Positions 8,570 to 45,689 of a DNA stretch of 64,000 nt are shown piece after piece (the first letter of the stretch is position 1; the number at the start of each line of letters is the position of its first letter). The notes under the pieces are model-generated. The model saw only the letters and a program-made list of their open reading frames with translations, was not told the DNA's origin and did no database searches. The stretch is from Prosopocoilus inquinatus (lineage: Eukaryota > Arthropoda > Insecta > Coleoptera > Lucanidae). The stretch lies in contig CM069871.1 in the NCBI GenBank assembly GCA_036172665.1, positions 8,308,001 through 8,372,000 of the forward strand, written 5' to 3'. The position numbers and the translations under genes are program-made.

Positions 8570-10371
8570 CGCTGTGGGATATAATAAAAAAAGAAACGTC
8601 GCCTCATTCTTCGAGTGAAGCAATCAATATCACATGTGAGGAATTCAATCAATTTTTTGTAGCATTGGAAATAATACACTCCAAAACATCCCTGTAAGCA
8701 GGAACAATCCAACTCAGTACCTGAATACACTCACGCGAAATTCCTCTACATGCTACCTAACTCCTGTTACTCCAGAGGAAATCAGATCAATTATAGGTGG
8801 ACTTAAACCAAAAACCTCGACAGATGTTTACGGCCTGAATACAAAACTCATTAGGACATGTTCCAAGTACATAGCTCATCCTCTAGCGAATATTATCAAC
8901 ACGTGCTTCCAAGAAGGTGTAGTCCCTGACGAAATGAAAATAGCGAAGGTTGTGCCCGTATTCAAAAAAGGAAACCGTTCTTCCATCACCAACTACAGAC
9001 CCATCTCAATCCTGCCTGTCCCATCTAAGATCTTCGAAGCTGCCTTATGCACCAGGTTGAATAACTTCCTTTCAAAAAACAACTGTTTGACTGTTTGCCA
9101 GTTCGGATTCAGAAAGGGGAAAATACGACAGACGCAGTACCATCGCTCTTGAATTATGTATGGGATGCTTTCGAAGAACATTGCGATTGTGAAGCCTTAC
9201 TGTGTGACCTGAGTAAAGCGTTCGACTGTATGCAACACGATATATTCCTTTCGAAACTCGAACATTATGGCGTAAGAGGAATCACTCTGCAAGTCGTACA
9301 ATCTTATCTGGAAAACAGGAAGCAAGGCGTCTATCTAGGTGGACAAATCAGCAACTTGTCACCCATTCTTACTGGTGTTCCACAAGGCTCACTGACGGGA
9401 CCTCTTTTCTTCAGTATTTTTATTAATGATCTGCCACACCGAATACCAGCTCATACTATTCTATATGCAGATGATACAACTTTAATATGCAAAGGCCATA
9501 GTTACAAAGAAGCTCAAGTAAACCTGGACAAAGCAAACAAAGAAGCTGCAATCTGATTTTCCGACAATAAACTGTTCTTAAATAACGATAAATCATCGAA
9601 ATTAGTATTCACTACCAAACGAAACACTGGTTTAATAGCAGCAAATACTACTAAATTCTTTGGTATTACACTGGATACCCGGCTAACTTGGAAAGCGCAT
9701 ACGGATGAACTTCTAAACAAACTTGCCGCAGCTACCTACGCAATCCGAAGAATTAGGGATATTATAGATAAAGAAGCCTCATTAGTTGCTTATTTTGCCC
9801 TATTTCAGTCAAGAATGAGTTATGGTATTCAAGTTTGGGGAGAATCTGCTCACGCCCAGGCAGTCTTTGTTGCCCAAAAAAAGGCAATTCGCATTATTGA
9901 ACACGTTGCTCAACAAAGTCACTGCAAACCTTTATTTCGCAAACTTGGCATAATGACAATGACATCTCTGTACCTTCACTCTCAGCTTACAAGAGCTCAC
10001 GACGAAGCTGACACATTATCGAAAAGGGGAGCTACAATATCTGCAAACTTAAGAAGCCACTACAAATTAGAAGTATCAATGCGAAGAATAAATGCCACGG
10101 CAGTACAAACTAGACATTTGTACCTATACAATAAATTACCGATAGAATGGACCAAATTGTCAAAGAAAGTGTTTGCCAAAAAATTAAAATCTTACTTAAT
10201 AGGCAAGGCGTATTATAACGTAAATGAATATCTTGAAGATACCCTAAAATTGTAATTGCAATCTCACTTAATGTGCTTAATGTACTTTTAATGCAATTTA
10301 ATGCAATTTTGATTTTGACTAAACTGTAAATTATTGAGCTGAATAAACGTTATTATTATTATTATTATTAA
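8570..10371 (+). mobile_element. non-LTR retrotransposon (LINE), 5'-truncated, Jockey/CR1-like
   Basis: This is a 1.8-kb LINE remnant. It begins in the linker between endonuclease and RT, spans the whole RT domain and C-terminal region, has a 110-bp 3' UTR and ends in (TTA)n at 10350-10370. The endonuclease domain and any ORF1 are missing, typical of 5' truncation during target-primed reverse transcription. The tail directly abuts the first unit of the satellite at 10374, so it probably inserted at the array edge. Clade assignment rests on motif style only. Confidence 0.85.
8587..10255 (+). pseudogene. reverse transcriptase pseudogene (broken by 2 frameshifts and 1 stop)
   Basis: The protein would be the RT polyprotein of a LINE, which copies its RNA into a nicked chromosome. 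Visible in order: a linker with K-A-L-W-D (about 8560-8590); RT block 0/1 with V-V-P-V-F-K-K-G and N-Y-R-P-I-S (8950-9010); F-G-F-R-K-G (about 9105); D-L-S-K-A-F-D (about 9210); G-V-P-Q-G-S (about 9375); the catalytic Y-A-D-D at 9464-9475; and a C-terminal Y-N-K-L-P (about 10128). Breaks: a frameshift in the T6 run near 8655, a frameshift near 9115, and an in-frame TGA at 9554-9556 where the family has Trp. No start codon for the full protein survives. The long intact stretch 9557-10255 suggests moderate age. Confidence 0.85.
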
Positions 10372-10373
10372 TC

Positions 10374-13080
10374 ACCACATTCAGAAAAGAACAAAAATTA
10401 CTTTTGCTTCAGAAGATCTGTTACTCCGTCGACGACTTTTTCCTTTAAAATTTAAAAACTCCTCCTAAATGATTAATTATTGACGTTTATCGATATCATT
10501 TGTATTTTTCATATTTGGTAATAAATATTTTGGTATTTGATATTTATATTTGAAGGTGAATCTGTCTGTGAAGTTTGAGAATTTTTCATTCGCCCGGTTT
10601 CGAAGATATTTACAAAAAATCAGTGACGGAGTTCAATTTATACCAAACTATCGGCACGGTCTTGACCAGTGAATGTTAAAATAAATTACTGGAAAAGTTT
10701 TTTCTTTCAATCTTTTTCAAAAACGAACTAGAATTATTAATTATCTGTTCGGGTATCACTATTATTAATCAAGGCTGAGCTGATAGTTTGGTATAAATTG
10801 AATATTTTTTAAATATCTTGAAACTGATCGCATGAAAAATTGTCAAACTTCACGCACAGATTCATCTTGAAGAGTGCTTTAAGAAACCGAAATGGAATTT
10901 TGCTGTAAAGTAATTAGGGAAGCCAATATTCGAGCACTTTTAAATTAACATGGGATTTCCTATGTTGCGTTTGAAAAGGCAGCACCCTGTATACAGCAAT
11001 TCACATACCTACTTAAGAATTTAAAATTCATCTATTTCTAACAAAAAAATTAATAATTTGTTTTTTTTGCCATAAAATATTGTTCATTTTTATTGACGAA
11101 AGACACATATTTGCATAAAGTTCGCGCGAGTCAGAGCCTTAGAAATAAGACGACGAGGCAGGTAATTAACAGAAAACAAAAAACAAGAAGCTAAAACTGA
11201 TGCCGTTCATAACCACATTCAGGAAAGAACTAAAATTACTTTTGCTTCAGGAGAAGTGTTACTCCGTCGACGACTTTTTTCTTTAAAATTTAAAAACTCC
11301 TCCTAAATGATTAATTATTGACGTTTATCGATATCATTTGTATTTTTCATATTTGGTAATAAATATTTTGGTATTTGATATTGATATTTGAAGGTGAATC
11401 TGTCTGTGAAGTTTGAGAATTTTTCATTCGCCCAGTTTCGAAGATATTTACAAAAAATCAGTGACGGAGTTCAATTTATACCAAACTATCAGCACGGTCT
11501 TGACCAGTGAATGTTAAAATAAATTACTGGGAAAGCTTTTCCTATCAATCTTTTTCAAAAACGAACTAGAATTATTAATTATCTGTTCGGGTTTCACTAT
11601 TATTAATCAAGGCTGAGCTGATAGATTGGTATAAATTGAATATTTTTTAAATATCTTGAAATTGATCGTATGAAAAATTGTCAAACTTCACGGACAGATT
11701 CATCTTGAAGAGTACTTTAAGAAACCTAAATGCAATTTTGCAGTAAAGTAATTAGGGAAGCCAATATTCGAGCACCTTTAAATTAACATGGGATTTCCTA
11801 TGTTGCGTTTGAAAAGGCAGCACCCTGTATACAACAATTCACATACCTACTTAAGAATTTAAAATTCATCTATTTCTAACAAAAAAATTAATAATTTGTT
11901 TTTTTTGCCATAAAATATTGTTCATTTATTGACGAAAGACACATATTTGCATAAAGTTCGCGTCGAGTCAGAACCTTAAAAATAAGACGACGAGGCAGGC
12001 AATTAACAAAAAACAAAAAAAAGAAGCTAAAACTGGTGCCGTTCATAACCACATTCAGAAAAGAACTAAAATTACTTTTGCTTCAGGAGAAGTGTTACTC
12101 CGTCGACGACTTTTTTCTTTAAAATTTAAAAACTCCTCCTAAATTATTAATTATTGACGTTTATCGATATCATTTGTATTTTTGATATTTGGTAATAAAT
12201 ATTTTGTTATTTGATATTGATATTTGAAAGTGAATCTGTCTGTGAAGTTTGAGAATTTTTCATTCGCCCAGTTTCAAGATATTTACAAAAAATCAGTGAC
12301 GGAGTTCAATTTATACCAAACTATCAGCACGGTCTTGACCAGTAAATGTTAAAATAAATTACTGGAAAAGCTTTTTCTATCAATCTTTTTCAAAAACGAG
12401 CTTGAATTATTAATTATCTGTTCAGGTTTCACTATTATTGATTAAGGCTGAGCTGATAGTTTGGTATAAATTGAATCTTTTTTTAAATATCTTGAAACTG
12501 ACCGCGTGAAAAATTATCAAACTTCGGGGACAGATTCATCTTGAAGAGTACTTTAAGAAACCTAAATGGAATTTTGCTGTAAAGTAATTAGGGACGCCAA
12601 TATTCGAGCAGCTTTAAATTAACATGGGATTTCCTATGTTGCGTTTCAACAGGCAGCAGCCTGTATACAACAATTCACATACCTACTTAAGAATTAAAAA
12701 ATTATTTATCTATTTCTAACAAAAAAATTTAATAATTAATTTTTTTTCCATAAAATATTGACGAAAGACATATTTTCATAAAGTTCGCGTCGAGTCAGAG
12801 CCTGAAAAATAAGACGACCTTTGAATTAACATGGGATTTCCCATGTTAAGGGCAGCACCCTGTATATAACAATTCACATACCTACTTAAGAATTTTAAAT
12901 TCATCTGTTTCTAACAAAAAAATTAATAATTTGTTTTTTTTTGCCATAAAATATTGTTCATTTATTGACGAATGACACATATTTGCATAAAGTTCGCGTC
13001 GAGTCAGAGCCTTAAAAATAAGACGACGAGGCAGGCAATTAACAAAAAACCAAAAAAAAGAAGCTAAAACTGACGCCGTT
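10374..13080. repeat. satellite-like tandem array, ~837-bp unit, 3+ copies
   Basis: Unit starts (ACCACATTCAG(A/G)AAAGAAC) fall at 10374, 11212 and 12048, giving periods of 838 and 836 bp. The third unit breaks off at about 12815 and resumes in the middle of a fourth unit, which ends near 13080 with AAGCTAAAACTGACGCCG; about 560 bp are missing at that junction. Each unit holds its own inverted repeat (for example 10551-10665 against 10756-10870, sharing TATACCAAACTATC and its complement) and a CAGCACCCTGTATA(C/T)A word near its end. Copies are very similar, so amplification was fairly recent. No ORF. Confidence 0.9.
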
Positions 13081-23039: not shown

Positions 23040-24232
23040 ATTTAATTTTTTAAATGATCGATAATAACGGTTTTGCCTTGTGGATCCCGCCCTCCCCCCT
23101 GATATTCTAAAAAATGGTTTAAACCAGTATAAAGCCTGAACATAACCTCAAATATGACAACTGTCAACTTATCATTTATTTCTCATTGTATCCAACCGCA
23201 CAGCATAAAATAGCACCAATCACAGCCTCCTCTAATCATGAATTCCATTGATCACCCGGTATAATATAAACATACATCTGAATGTGGTTAAATTAAAAGT
23301 GAACGACGAATTTAATGTTTTAAATGATCGATAATAACGGTTTTGCCTTGTGGATCTCGCCCTCCCCCCTGATATTCTAAAAAATCGTTTAAACCAGCAT
23401 CCATACGAAATAAAATAACAAAATAGATATTGTATAAAGCCCGAGCATAACCTCAAATATGACAACTGTCAACTTATCTATCTTGTATTTCTCATTGTAT
23501 CCAACCGTACAGCATAAAATAGCACCAATCACAGCCTCCTCTAATTATGAATTCCATTAATCACCCGGCATAATATAAATATACATCTGAATGTGGTTAA
23601 ATTAAAAGTGAACGACACATTCAATGTTTTAAATGATCGATAATAACGGTTTTGCCCTTGTGGAACCCGCACTCCCTCCTAATATTCTAAAAAATGGTTT
23701 CAACCAGCATCCATACGAAATAAAATAACAAAATAGAGATTGTATAAAGCCCGAGCATAACCTCAAATATGACAACTGTCAACTTATCATTTATTTCTCA
23801 TGGTATCCGACCGCACAGCATAAAATAGTACCAATCACAGCCTCCTCTAATTATGAATTCCATTAATCACCCGGTATAATATAAACACACATCTGAATGT
23901 GGTTAAATTAAAAGTGAACGACGCATTTAATGTTTTAAATGATCGATAATAACGGTTTTGCCTTGTGGAACCCGCCCTCCCCCCTAATATTCTAAAAAAG
24001 TGGTTTAAACCAGCATCCATACGAAATAAAATAACAAAATAAAGATTGTATAAAGCCCGAGCATAACCTCAAATATTAGAACTGTCAACTTATCATTTAT
24101 TTCTAATTGTATCCAACCGCACCGCATAAAATAGCACCAATCACAGCCTCCTCTAATTATGAATTCCATTAATCACCCGGTATAATATAAACACACATCT
24201 GAATGTGGTTAAATTAAAAGTGAACGACGCAC
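23040..24232. repeat. tandem array, ~305-bp unit, four copies
   Basis: AAATGATCGATAATAACGGT begins copies at 23052, 23322, 23631 and 23937 (spacings 270, 309, 306). The first copy lacks a ~37-bp stretch (CATCCATACGAAATAAAATA...) found in the others. Each unit contains ATCACCCGG(T/C)ATAATATAAA, a word also found at the right ends of the elements at 33077 and 50062. The array ends near 24232 at GAACGACGCACGCG. Confidence 0.9.
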
Positions 24233-25380: not shown

Positions 25381-26740
25381 TTTTCAAGGTCATCCAAATA
25401 GGGGTTCCAAATTTTGAAAACGGCAGGAAAGTGAGTTTGATTGTTATTTTGTTAACCGTGCAATAAATTCGGAAGGCACACTGATGGACCATTTCCTGTC
25501 GGCATTTTGGGAATCACTGGCCTAAAACCGTCGTTGTCCTCTGCTTAGTCAAGTAATTTTGACTATTATTTCGTCCATTTCAAAAAAAAAAAAAAAACAA
25601 ATATATAAACCCTTTTGTTAAGTTTGTGTAATAAATTTGGAAGGAAAACTTGATGGACTATTTTCTGTCGACTTTTTGGGAATCACTGGTACGAAATCGT
25701 CGTCTTCTGCTTAGTCAAGTCATTTTGACTTTATTTCATCCATTTAAAAAAAAAAAGATTGGATAAATTCTTCAGAAGTCTAAACAAGAAAAAGTTGCTC
25801 CGGTAATAGTTTGGTGACTTTAGCTCTCCTTAGAATGAAATCAATTAAAAATGCAATTTAAATTTTGTGAAAACGATGAAGTTCAACTTGCAAGGTCAAT
25901 CAGTAGCGGTTCTCATTTTTCTTTTTCTTTTTCTTTTTTCTTGAAAAGTGCCACGCGGTTATTTCGAATAATTTGGTGAATTTACCCAAAAGAAAATCCT
26001 TTTGGACGTGTTCAAATCTGAGACGCTTCACAACGCGAGCAAAACTTGTTAAAAAAATATAAAATTTAGTTTTCAAGGTCATCTAGATAGGGGTTCAAAA
26101 GTTTTGGTGGTGGAAAATTTATTTTAATTTATATTTTATTAACTGCGCAATAATTTTAGAAAGAACCCTTCAAGGACCATTTCCTGCCGACATGTTGGGA
26201 ATCGCTGAACTAAAACTGCCTTCTGTTTGGCCAGGTAATAGGTGCTTAAAAGTTTGAATCGTGCTTCGAATAGTTTGGACCGTATGTCGTAGTTGTTGCC
26301 ACAGAACACCTGACATGAATTTTTGATTGACAGTTCATTTGTAAATAACCACAATTCAATCCAAACAAGTTTTAAAAATAGAGAGATTCAAAGATAAGAA
26401 CGTCTGTTTTTGACGTTTGGATCACGATTTTGTGAGCGAAAGAAAGCGATCACTCTGAAAAAAAAATCTATAACTTTAGCCTCGTTTCGACTCCTGTCAG
26501 TTAAAATTTTGGCAGAAAAATAGAAAGTTCAATTGTCCAAGGTCGTTCAGACAAGCGGTGCCAAATTTTCGTTTTGTTGGAAACTGTGAAAAGACGATTT
26601 TATTGACAATTTGTCAATTGTTCAATCATTTTGGAAAAGAATCCTCGAAGACGCTTTCCTGTCGACATTTTGGGAATTCCTGGTCTAGGACTGTCGGGTG
26701 CTCAGACAAGTAGTGGTCTGAACAAAAAAAAAATTCTAAT

Positions 26741-27111
26741 GGCCGGTTGCATCAATGTTTTAAGCAGAGCTGAAATTTAAGTCGTGTTTAGAACATGACA
26801 TTTTACGTAAGTTCAACAAAATGTCAGACACATTCTAACATAATACTTAAATGAAGTTTCATGCCCGTTTGCACCACTTTCAGTTACAAGTTTAAGTCTC
26901 ACTTAAATGTGAGTTTAAAAGTGACACTTTTTCCGTAATAGAAAGTGTCACTTAACCATTTAAGTAGGACTTAAAATTTTAAGTGAAAGTGGTGCAAACG
27001 GGCTTAAGTTCCAGTCAGAATGTGATTGACATTATACTCACCATGCATAAATGTCATGTTCTAAACATGACTTAAACTTAAGTTTTACTTAAAATATTTG
27101 TGCAACCGGGC
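26741..27111. mobile_element. palindromic MITE with a second palindrome nested inside
   Basis: GGCCGGTTGCA at the left and TGCAACCGGGC at the right form the ends, and the arms share TTTAGAACATGACA and its complement. The centre is occupied by a similar palindromic element (26863-27003). No ORF. Flanking AATG/ATAA gives no clear target duplication. Confidence 0.8.
26863..27003. mobile_element. nested palindromic MITE (141 bp)
   Basis: GCCCGTTTGCACCACTTTCA at the left is matched by TGAAAGTGGTGCAAACGGGC at the right, a perfect 20-bp terminal match, and AAGTGACACTTT/AAAGTGTCACTT closes the hairpin. It sits in the middle of the older palindrome 26741-27111, so it transposed later. Confidence 0.9.
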
Positions 27112-27140
27112 ATAAGGCAACTATAGTTTCTTGACTATAT

Positions 27141-27285
27141 GGCCGGTTGCACCAAACACTTAAGTCGAACTTAAATTTAAGTACTGCTCATAATGTGACA
27201 CTTGAGGTTACAAAACATTCAGTAAATCATATTCTAAGCGGTGCTTAAAGTTAAGCTGACCTTAAGTGTTAGGTGCAACTGGCCA
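27141..27285. mobile_element. palindromic MITE, same family
   Basis: GGCCGGTTGCACCAAACACT and AGTGTTAGGTGCAACTGGCC are inverted ends. The interior keeps CTTAAGTC/GACCTTAAG-type pairs. It lies 30 bp from the previous element. Confidence 0.85.
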
Positions 27286-27607
27286 TTAGTCTCCCTTAGA
27301 CTCCCGTAAGTAAAATAAATTTTGCAATAAAAATAAGTTCAATTTTCAAGGTCATCCAGAAGGGTTTCTTTTATTTTTTAAGATGGCCAAAAGGTGAATT
27401 TCGTAAGAAACGGATTCTTGGCTTCGGATTAAAGGAAATTTACGAGATTTATTGCCGAGCGAACGCCTTTTTTGCCGCCGTAAAACATATGAATGGAATC
27501 GAAATTTTTAAGCTGTTTTTTTTTAAAAATTTAAATAATTAACTTTCTGGCAGAATTCATTTTCTTGTCCGCCCTGATTGCGCCGTTTATTGTGATCGGG
27601 GTAGGTA

Positions 27608-27620
27608 TTTGATTTTAAGA
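27608..27620. repeat. target-site duplication, left copy
   Basis: TTTGATTTTAAGA, identical over 13 bases to 28011-28023, on the outer edge of the hammerhead foldback. Confidence 0.8.
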
Positions 27621-28010
27621 GTACGAACATGTGCCGAAGATGCCTCACTGTTCACTTTCGATGTTTAGGTCGCGCTCGATAGATCGATATAAAACAAACG
27701 CATAGATTTAAATGAAATCGTGCATCATGGTTCTATTTAAAACTGTACGCATTTGCGAAAAATTGAACGAGTCGTTTTTGGTTTGCAGTGAGAATGTCGA
27801 GCTACGTCTCTGCTGATGAAGCCCTAAACAGGGCTGAAACAGATGTACAGAGGCTGCTCGAGGTTTTCACTGCAATCAAAAACGATTTGCAACAATTTTT
27901 TTTTAAGACTGTACGTTTGTTTTACATCGAGGTAATATCGCGGTATCGAGCGCGACCTAAACATCGAGAGTGAACAGCGATGTATCTTCGGCATGTTCGT
28001 ACCCTAAGTG
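27621..28010 (+). mobile_element. non-autonomous foldback element with central hammerhead ribozyme
   Basis: This 390-bp block begins GTACGAACATG and ends CATGTTCGTACCCTAAGTG. Its halves are inverted copies: TTCACTTTCGATGTTTAGGT, GTCGCGCTCGATA, AAAACAAACG and TTGCAGTGA all have complements in the right half. A complete type I hammerhead occupies the turn, so stem I runs on into the long arms. Perfect 13-bp direct repeats flank the block. There is no coding capacity. The 13-bp duplication is longer than most DNA transposons make and fits reverse-transcription-based insertion, as does the ribozyme, which is known from Penelope-like elements and their relatives. The mobilising protein is not in this window. 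The open frame 27788-27973 is a by-product. Confidence 0.8.
27797..27861 (+). ncRNA. hammerhead ribozyme, type I, minimal stem III
   Basis: All core elements are present. CUGAUGA is at 27813-27819. Stem II is 6 bp (27820-27825 with 27830-27835) closed by an AAAC loop. GAAA is at 27836-27839. Stem III has two pairs (A27839-U27846, C27840-G27845) around an AGAU loop. The cleavage triplet is GUA, with the predicted cut after 27847. Stem I has an inner 5 bp (27808-27812 with 27848-27852), an internal loop of 5 and 3 bases, and an outer 6 bp (27797-27802 with 27856-27861); the internal loop is where the stem I-stem II tertiary contact is expected. Such short-stem-III motifs are known from retroelement and satellite RNAs and may need dimers for best activity. 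Confidence 0.85.
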
Positions 28011-28023
28011 TTTGATTTTAAGA
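28011..28023. repeat. target-site duplication, right copy
   Basis: TTTGATTTTAAGA, identical to 27608-27620. Confidence 0.8.
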
Positions 28024-28056
28024 TTGCCTAATTTGCAGGGTAGGTAGGTAGGTACA

Positions 28057-28166
28057 ACGACGCTCACCATAAATGGTGTTACCATTTGACAGTTTCGTAG
28101 CCCTTACGCTGAATGATCTTAAGGGTGTGGTTCGCATGCAAGAGTATCGTTTAAGTTGAGCGTCGT
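28057..28166. repeat. short inverted repeat
   Basis: ACGACGCTCA (28057-28066) pairs with TGAGCGTCGT (28157-28166), 90 bp apart. GTAGGTAGGTAGGTAC lies just upstream. Confidence 0.6.
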
Positions 28167-28423
28167 AGTACATTTGAACTTCGAACTCATTTAACGTATT
28201 TAATAGTATAATTCCGCCCGTTGTTTGTAATTCTTATTATTTATTGAATTTTTATGATACAATAACAATAAAAAAAAAGCACGCCAAATTTTATCTCGCG
28301 CGCGTCCAAATATAAACAACCTCACTTGTTTATTGTTGGCCAGATAACCTGCGCAACTTATTAAGGTGCGTTGCTTAATCTTATCGGGGAGTGTTATTTT
28401 GTAGATGCGATGCGAATCTCATG

Positions 28424-44329: not shown

Positions 44330-44789
44330 TGGAATGAATGTGTGTGTTTTGAGCTGTAACGTTGTCGAAAAAGTAAAAATCTGCACATGACGCGGCGCGG
44401 TAGAAAAACGAGAGGAAAGGGTTTTTTTCGTGCAGGGTGTGGTAACGACAAGTAAACGAGCGCAAAAAACAGTTGTTTGTTGTAATGCATCCATTTGTTA
44501 TTGTGCAACACACGAGGTGGTTGTACCGGCGACGTCGGTCAGGGCTGTAGAGAGTGAAACCGGCGCTTGCGTCGGCCGTAGAAACCGAAAGTGAAAAGCG
44601 AAAATCACAACCCCACTCCATCCCCTACCTTTCGCTTTCGGGACTCCCCTCCCGGGCACTTTCCCCGGCCGTGCGTGCACCGGCTGCAGTAGGCAGCCGA
44701 GAGAGCCGCTATTAAGACGTGCCAAGGTCAGCGTTCAAACTCACTTGACGCACACCAAAACGCGAGCAATCCGTGATTGTACGAGAAGC
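44330..44789 (+). promoter_or_regulatory. hdc: hdc 5' region / probable promoter and 5' UTR
   Basis: Base composition shifts sharply from AT-rich repeats to GC- and CpG-rich unique sequence (for example CGGCGACGTCGGTCAGGGC near 44528), as expected for a promoter and 5' UTR. I see no TATA box at a convincing distance, so a TATA-less promoter is likely, but the start site cannot be placed; TCAGGG at about 44538 and TCAGCG at about 44728 are possible initiators. Upstream frames on both strands here are composition artefacts. Confidence 0.45.
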
Positions 44790-45469
44790 ATGGCCCCGCG
44801 CCGGCATCATGGCCAAGTGCAGGGCCTCCTCGGTGCCGAATCCGAGGAGGCAGGCGTCACCCGCTGCTGCGTCCCCACCGGAGAATGTCTTCGCGCCCAG
44901 CAACAACTAAGCCCCAATAACAACGATCCAATGCTCATTTCTTTAGACGATCTACGTGACACCATAAGAGTTACATGCAATAACGAAACCTGCACGATAG
45001 GGCGTTACATGCATCGTGAGTGCTTCGAGCAGTGGGAGCAGACGGTTCTTGCTTATCTTAAGACCTGCGGAAGAGCACGCTCCTGGTCCGAGCGGCAGCG
45101 TCACCAGAACCTCTGGACCAAGAAGGGCTACGACCTAGCATTTAAGGCGTGCGGTTGCAAGTGCGGCAGGGGTCACCTTAAAAAAGACTTAGATTGGATG
45201 CCTCCACCGCCTACTAGTAACATTTTCGGGCGCGTCGAAGACATCGCCGACGCCGGCAAGAAAAAAAAGCGTCGCAATCGCAACGCACGACCTACTCTCG
45301 CTATATCCGCTCATCACGCAGCCCCTAACGAAGGTCGTGGAAGGGCCGGAAGTCTTTCATCCAGTACCGGTTCTTCTTCACCACCAGCTACCGCCAGCGA
45401 ACCCAGCGTATCCCCCATACACGCTCACTCCAAAAAGAAATCCAAATTCGAATTCGCCGACAGAGTACG
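44790..45469 (+). CDS. hdc: headcase (hdc/HECA), first coding exon
   Basis: This exon encodes the N-terminal 226 residues of headcase, a conserved cytoplasmic regulator that in Drosophila restrains imaginal and stem/progenitor cell growth (with Unkempt, downstream of mTOR) and tracheal branching. Visible: CCVPTGEC at residues 26-33; the cysteine-rich HECA N-terminal domain from about residue 50 to 136, with C63/C68, MHRECF (74-79), GRARSW (94-99), NLWTKKGYDLAF (107-118) and CGCKCGRGHLKKD (121-133), very close to human HECA; a basic KKKKRRNR (157-164), possible nuclear signal; then a Ser/Pro-rich stretch. The ATG at 44790 (AGCATGG context, MAPRR start) is preferred; the frame is open upstream to 44745 without another ATG. 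The exon ends CG|GTGAGT, phase 2. The remaining coding exons, including the C-terminal HECA domain, lie beyond 64000. Confidence 0.95.
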
Positions 45470-45689
45470 GTGAGTTGCTTTTTTTTTCTCTCCAAACTCC
45501 AAACAAACATCACACCTGCAAAAAATTCTTCTATTCAAGCAAAGACTTGACTCAAATTTACAATTACTATGACCGTTAAAACAAGCAAACAAATAGAATT
45601 TTTTATGATAATTGGAAACAACAAAACAATTCAAGCTTAATAATTTGAATTGAAACAACTCCTCCATTATATTTCAAGAGCACACAAGA

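Follow-up and report, generated by a model that had tools for sequence, protein, structure and literature searches.

A foldback MITE of the beetle Prosopocoilus inquinatus interrupted by a 5'-truncated hammerhead retrozyme, a probable product of Penelope-like machinery

Introduction

A palindromic block that carries a complete hammerhead ribozyme at its turn and lies between identical short repeats raises the question of whether it is a single mobile element of unusual design or the outcome of more than one insertion. Such a block occupies positions 27608-28023 of the 64,000-nucleotide stretch of Prosopocoilus inquinatus DNA analysed here (the window). An earlier note read it as one non-autonomous foldback element of 390 bp, mobilised through RNA, with 13-bp target duplications and with stem I of the hammerhead merging into element-length arms. 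We compared the block with the window's own 650-Mb beetle assembly, in which the window occupies C3:8308001-8372000, and consider it very likely that a MITE here contains a 5'-truncated retrozyme copy, probably inserted by the machinery of a Penelope-like element (PLE). The feature itself is ordinary repeat nesting and illustrates how nesting can mimic a new element.

Two nested repeat families

The block is an imperfect palindrome, its arms at 27632-27690 and 27935-27993 being complementary at 88%, and the RNA fold of 27621-28010 reaches -205 kcal/mol (z -19.9). The 13-bp repeats on its two sides, TTTGATTTTAAGA at 27608-27620 and 28011-28023 (neither with a strand), are exact. Searched against the genome, the whole block has 65 matches (best 40 of 2655 candidates scored); its own locus accounts for two of them, and the remaining 63 are confined to the hammerhead part at query positions 140-304. 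The right arm alone retrieves a separate dispersed family (76 matches; best 40 of 806 candidates scored), and the hammerhead family is found in other surroundings than the arm family. When 19 arm relatives were searched with the hammerhead part, none had a hammerhead inside the arm element; the sole match among them is a hammerhead-family copy about 0.4 kb outside the arm match of L046. The insert is likewise absent from all 15 arm relatives that were aligned letter by letter to the window flanks joined without the insert, these 15 having been picked from the 19 for one-piece alignment, with L042 and L046-L048 excluded for a broken best-oriented match. An uninterrupted 20-mer spanning the insertion point is exact in 11 of the 19, and the assignment of the left arm draws on the 19 relatives searched and the 15 aligned.

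Comparison of these copies shows the block at 27608-28023 to consist of two unrelated mobile elements, a truncated copy of a putative ribozyme retroelement within a foldback DNA transposon. The palindrome and its identical flanking repeats were thus described correctly, and the single 390-bp element was not. Since the two families are nested, the apparent merging of stem I with element-length arms is an effect of nesting and not one design.

The outer element is presumably a PIF/Harbinger MITE, taken as such from features of that superfamily and assigned from its ends and duplication only; the common features are the foldback structure and the terminal inverted repeats GGGTACG../..CGTACCC beside TWA. 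With the window counted, the ends GGGTACG...CGTACCC of the arm family adjoin TWA in 15 of 16 cases on the left and in 12 of 16 on the right, and the three flanking bases are identical on both sides in 9 of 16. These ends beside TWA define the MITE of the window as 27619-28004 on the plus strand, with TAA on each side (27616-27618 and 28005-28007, without strand). Its left part (27619-27749) has a small internal deletion relative to its relatives, and its right part (27908-28004) ends in CGTACCC and begins with the duplicated target of the insert (27908-27915). Removal of the MITE and one TAA leaves a target of two 14-bp repeats with 13 of 14 positions matching. Read from this reconstructed target, the 13-bp repeats are part of its 14-bp tandem repeat, and neither element produced them as its duplication: the left copy runs across the TAA and two bases into the MITE, and the right copy lies outside the MITE. 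The function of target duplication that had been assigned to them belongs instead to TAA for the MITE and, for the insert, to the 8-bp ACTGTACG (27742-27749 and 27908-27915, strandless; exact, or 10 of 11 positions counting AAxACTGTACG). Two successive insertions are shown: a foldback MITE with TWA duplication entered a 14-bp tandem repeat, and this MITE later received a hammerhead retrozyme copy (unit 311 nt) that is truncated at the 5' side, is flanked by an 8-bp duplication and has its 3' end at the T-run of its family.

The window holds 43 inverted pairs of at least 40 nt, and overlapping foldback repeats cluster at 26736-27286, beside the block. A small palindromic element (GTACAACGACGCTCA.../...TTGAGCGTCGTAGTAC) lies at 28053-28170, about 50 bases to the right of the MITE and adjoining a GTAG repeat; it is without a hammerhead by the type I and relaxed descriptors.

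The hammerhead and its family

The insert (27750-27907, plus strand) is a 158-bp monomer in forward orientation only, comprising unit positions 155-309 plus AAG, with the whole hammerhead inside. All core letters of a type I hammerhead are present within 27797-27862, so that the complete core at the turn of the palindrome was read accurately. On the plus strand, stem I consists of a distal part (27797-27802/27856-27861) and a proximal part (27806-27812/27848-27854), with the UAC side of an internal loop at 27803-27805; these are joined by the core CUGAUGA (27813-27819), a stem II of 6 bp with loop AAAC (27820-27835), and a segment at 27836-27847 with GAAA, the two-pair stem III (CAGATG; CAGCTG in the family) and the U-A that precedes the cleavage point predicted after 27847. 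The rod of about 27771-27887 is the continuation of stem I and lies wholly within the inserted copy, and the T-run at 27896-27904 (plus strand) is one of two places at which outer ends recur in the retrozyme family.

With both strands scanned, a descriptor of the complete type I hammerhead has one match in the window, as against three in 100 second-order Markov windows. One more match, AT-rich and on the minus strand at 25775, came from a relaxed descriptor and was judged to be chance. The covariance-model check proposed by the earlier note was negative for the window at the Rfam gathering score, the best sub-threshold hammerhead match being Hammerhead_HH9, whose 18.0 bits fall short of the cut-off of 52 (E 0.12 in a search of 600 bases) and with whose consensus the UAC beside stem I aligns. 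In the genome, Hammerhead_1 has at least 8 matches, 7 of them above the cut-off (best 74 of 83220 candidates scored). None of the 14 relatives given reached the gathering score. In a relaxed Rfam scan of four loci only L009 matched (Hammerhead_1, 22.2 bits against 34). A scan for the stem II pattern found nothing in viral contigs and nothing in plasmids.

The retrozyme unit, taken as one period in L009, measures 311 nt with a GC content of 0.41, and no coding sequence was seen in it. Direct hammerhead pairs 307-312 nt apart occur in 3 of the 51 loci scanned (L009, L027 and L053), L012 having been dropped from the counts as a duplicate of L009. The core CUGANGA..GAAA is kept in 50 of 54 hammerhead copies (L012 excluded). 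Among these 50, the self-complementary CAGCTG followed by TA is found in 42, the window having CAGATG, and this self-complementarity (CAGCUG) suggests that the hammerheads may act in pairs, as dimers. The commonest form of stem II has 5 bp with the six-base loop CAAACA (27/50), and the 6-bp stem II that had been described holds for the window and is a minority form in the family (3/50).

Four of the eight Hammerhead_1 loci were examined: L094 and L092 match the retrozyme unit beyond the hammerhead, L093 and L095 mainly within it. In these diverged hammerheads U-C precedes the cleavage point in three of four, and U-A does so in 48 of the 50 young copies. In an alignment of six sequences, four of them diverged, paired cells amount to 88.1% against 82.2% when shuffled (reached by 2 of 500 shuffles), two-sided changed cells number 6 against 3.0 (10 of 500), and the covariation score is reached by none of 500 shuffles; pairs with a two-sided change number 3, no more than in the shuffles (2.6). 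As a hammerhead model had retrieved the four diverged sequences, the support from this alignment is modest.

The hammerhead family fits metazoan retrozymes, with predicted ribozyme activity and a predicted circular RNA. It has in common with metazoan non-LTR retrozymes, as described in PMC7229834, the type I hammerhead, direct pairs in some loci, a unit length within 170-400 nt, a GC content below 50%, duplications of more than 4 bp and a strongly self-paired predicted circle. It differs from them in that the copies here mostly form head-to-head composites with two recurrent outer ends, not tandem arrays, in that circle and cleavage are predicted from sequence, and in that only a truncated monomer is present in the window. 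For the predicted circle the fold energy is -94.6 kcal/mol; bases at the T-run end and immediately ahead of position 139 are predicted to be mostly unpaired, positions 139-142 mostly paired. The retrozyme would be transcribed and its multimers trimmed to units by the type I hammerhead with its weak two-pair stem III, the units then being circularised. A non-autonomous hammerhead element mobilised through RNA, as the earlier note proposed, is apparently right in kind, the family being akin to satellite hammerheads and linked to PLEs.

Two other candidates were set aside. A rod-like retrozyme circle of 390 or 403 nt, in which the 13-bp repeat would be a duplication or a terminal redundancy, was considered with circular folds and is ruled out by the two genome families. 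A 306-bp tandem array at 23127-24231 (3.6 copies), retrozyme-sized and hence a possible second retrozyme, has no hammerhead by the relaxed descriptor.

Insertion grammar of the retrozyme

Insertions of the family were examined in two samples. The first comprises 43 insertion clusters from 39 loci, the copies being those that score best against the query, so that the sample is young and biased. In 22 of the 43 the insertion is a head-to-head composite whose outer ends fall one at unit position 133-150 (hereafter ~140) and one at the T-run; composites with the same site at both ends are represented by one T/T and no 140/140. On a crude null with an even choice of sites, one of each in 22 of 23 has a p of 5.7e-6. 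Nine clusters are forward-only, six ending at the T-run (the window included) and three at ~140. A further 11 have an end away from both sites, some of these being trimmed alignments or truncations. Duplications of at least 8 bp were found in 22 of the 43 clusters, against 8.1% of 839 shuffled end pairs, and in 18 of the 22 two-site composites.

The second sample was selected with the hammerhead-free half of the unit (best 40 of 1064 candidates scored) and comprises 16 clusters from 12 new loci, L078 and L079 having been dropped as repeats of L009 and L012; the shuffled end pairs are those of the first sample. Six composites use one of each site and none the same site twice, all six with a duplication of at least 8 bp; four of the 16 clusters are forward-only and end at a site, and six have an end elsewhere. 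Over both samples, 29 composites have a site at each end, and in 28 of these the two sites differ; duplications in two-site composites are usually 8-14 bp. An inverted part stands at the start of 44 of the 59 clusters, and 13 of the 59, the window among them, are forward-only with the right end at a site. No report of a two-site, head-to-head grammar for retrozymes was found in the open-licence literature searched.

The arms cross the hammerhead cleavage site and can exceed one turn (L053, L065), so that either the enzyme switched from one RNA to another or it copied a circular or multimeric template. To judge from the arms, the template was not a cleaved monomer read once.

Penelope-like elements as candidate mobiliser

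Earlier work did not settle which enzyme integrates animal retrozymes, but named PLEs as a strong candidate (PMC7229834; PMC8969392). The canonical PLE layout combines a reverse transcriptase and a GIY-YIG domain in one frame (PMC11167929), and the known structure includes head-to-head copies and an optional tail (PMC3846280). The purified PLE of the anole cuts both strands and extends them, starting at a pair of adjacent internal sites between which the tail lies; its strands are alike in start site, and hammerhead cleavage is dispensable for insertion (PMC11167929).

A genome search for GIY-YIG gave at least 150 matches, most of equal score (best 150 of 2232 candidates scored). Neighbours within 10 kb are head-to-head in 46 of 47 pairs, 94 of the 150 scored matches being paired. 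Four close pairs (L074-L077), chosen for closeness, were examined: all four are palindromes more than 99% identical, with one tail-less end and one end 37-38 nt longer, and their duplications measure 13, 11, 15 and 12 bp. These head-to-head palindromes are nearly identical to each other and the family looks very young in the genome. A further locus, L068, has a frame of 369 residues with GIY-YIG, in which Pfam found no reverse transcriptase even at E 10; its closest protein among the matches listed is 60% identical over 96% and carries RVT_1 and GIY-YIG, and RVT_1 is present in many of its best 120 listed relatives. In L069, a retrozyme copy (2006-2456) lies about 0.4 kb from a GIY-YIG fragment.

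The retrozyme has in common with GIY-YIG PLEs (PMC3846280; PMC11167929) head-to-head inverted insertions, two alternative ends (the 'tail'), duplications of about 8-15 bp and AT-rich targets. Its two ends are 143/168 nt apart on the unit, whereas those of this beetle's PLE are 37-38 nt apart. No trustworthy sequence homology between retrozyme and PLE was found, only one weak common 8-mer, TCACTATT, at a PLE end and the ~140 site; it was discarded as support because a match of 8 bases is reached by 23 of the 311 windows of the unit and by 46 of the 1300 of the PLE.

By analogy with these insertions, we infer that this beetle's PLE moves this retrozyme. PLE machinery would cut both target strands and begin to reverse-transcribe from ~140 on one strand and from the T-run on the other, both being fixed internal sites; as a rule this would yield a head-to-head composite with 8-14-bp duplications, and the window copy would be a one-armed, shortened product whose single hammerhead could cut a read-through transcript at most once. 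In its general form, we lean towards the proposal that PLE machinery integrates an animal retrozyme by extending both cut strands on circular or multimeric RNA, each from a different fixed internal site flanking the hammerhead rod, with 'one site per strand' for retrozyme and PLE alike. If true, this would be insertion-level evidence for the mover of animal retrozymes and for the head-to-head insertion mode of PLEs. A retrozyme and a young PLE that share a two-site head-to-head grammar in one beetle genome make the published guess at PLEs directly testable.

Alternative explanations

The palindrome, the exact 13-bp repeats and the hammerhead at the turn would agree with a single foldback element that brings a hammerhead of its own and lies between 13-bp target duplications. 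Such an element is scarcely credible: arms and hammerhead are separate genome families, the site is uninterrupted in arm relatives, and the right 13-bp copy begins 6 bases outside the MITE end while the left one overlaps the MITE. A hammerhead that is a chance or dead motif without a role in a palindromic repeat family would agree with Rfam scores below gathering, a stem III of two pairs with a two-base loop, and the few direct pairs (3/51 loci); the core kept in 50 of 54 copies makes it improbable, as does a covariation score that no shuffle in 500 reached, for six sequences of which four were found by a hammerhead model.

The choice of machinery calls for a separate comparison. Twin-primed LINE insertions have an inverted 5' part and a variable duplication, and the T-run end, the AT-rich duplications of 8-14 bp and the inverted 5' parts of the hammerhead family fit such twin priming; the window also contains a reverse transcriptase (RVT_1) at 8640-10255, its LINE type judged by eye. 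Mobilisation by a LINE, through ordinary target priming with twin priming and not by a PLE, is nonetheless unlikely, as a fixed second start is not expected of twin priming: the second start site of the retrozyme recurs at one place, unlike that of twin-primed LINE insertions, and 28 of 29 two-site composites are one-of-each, as are the four PLE loci. Integration by PLE machinery is thus the reading that we prefer.

Other features of the window

The reverse transcriptase pieces at 8640-10255 lie in three overlapping or adjoining frames; two of these frames carry an RVT_1 match, which in one case scores below the curated cut-off. A tandem array at 10368-13080 is built of units of about 838 bp that contain inverted repeats. 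The open reading frame at 44595-45473 is the N-terminal exon of headcase (Pfam HECA_N), and its best named relatives are from beetles, such as Tenebrio molitor at 86%.
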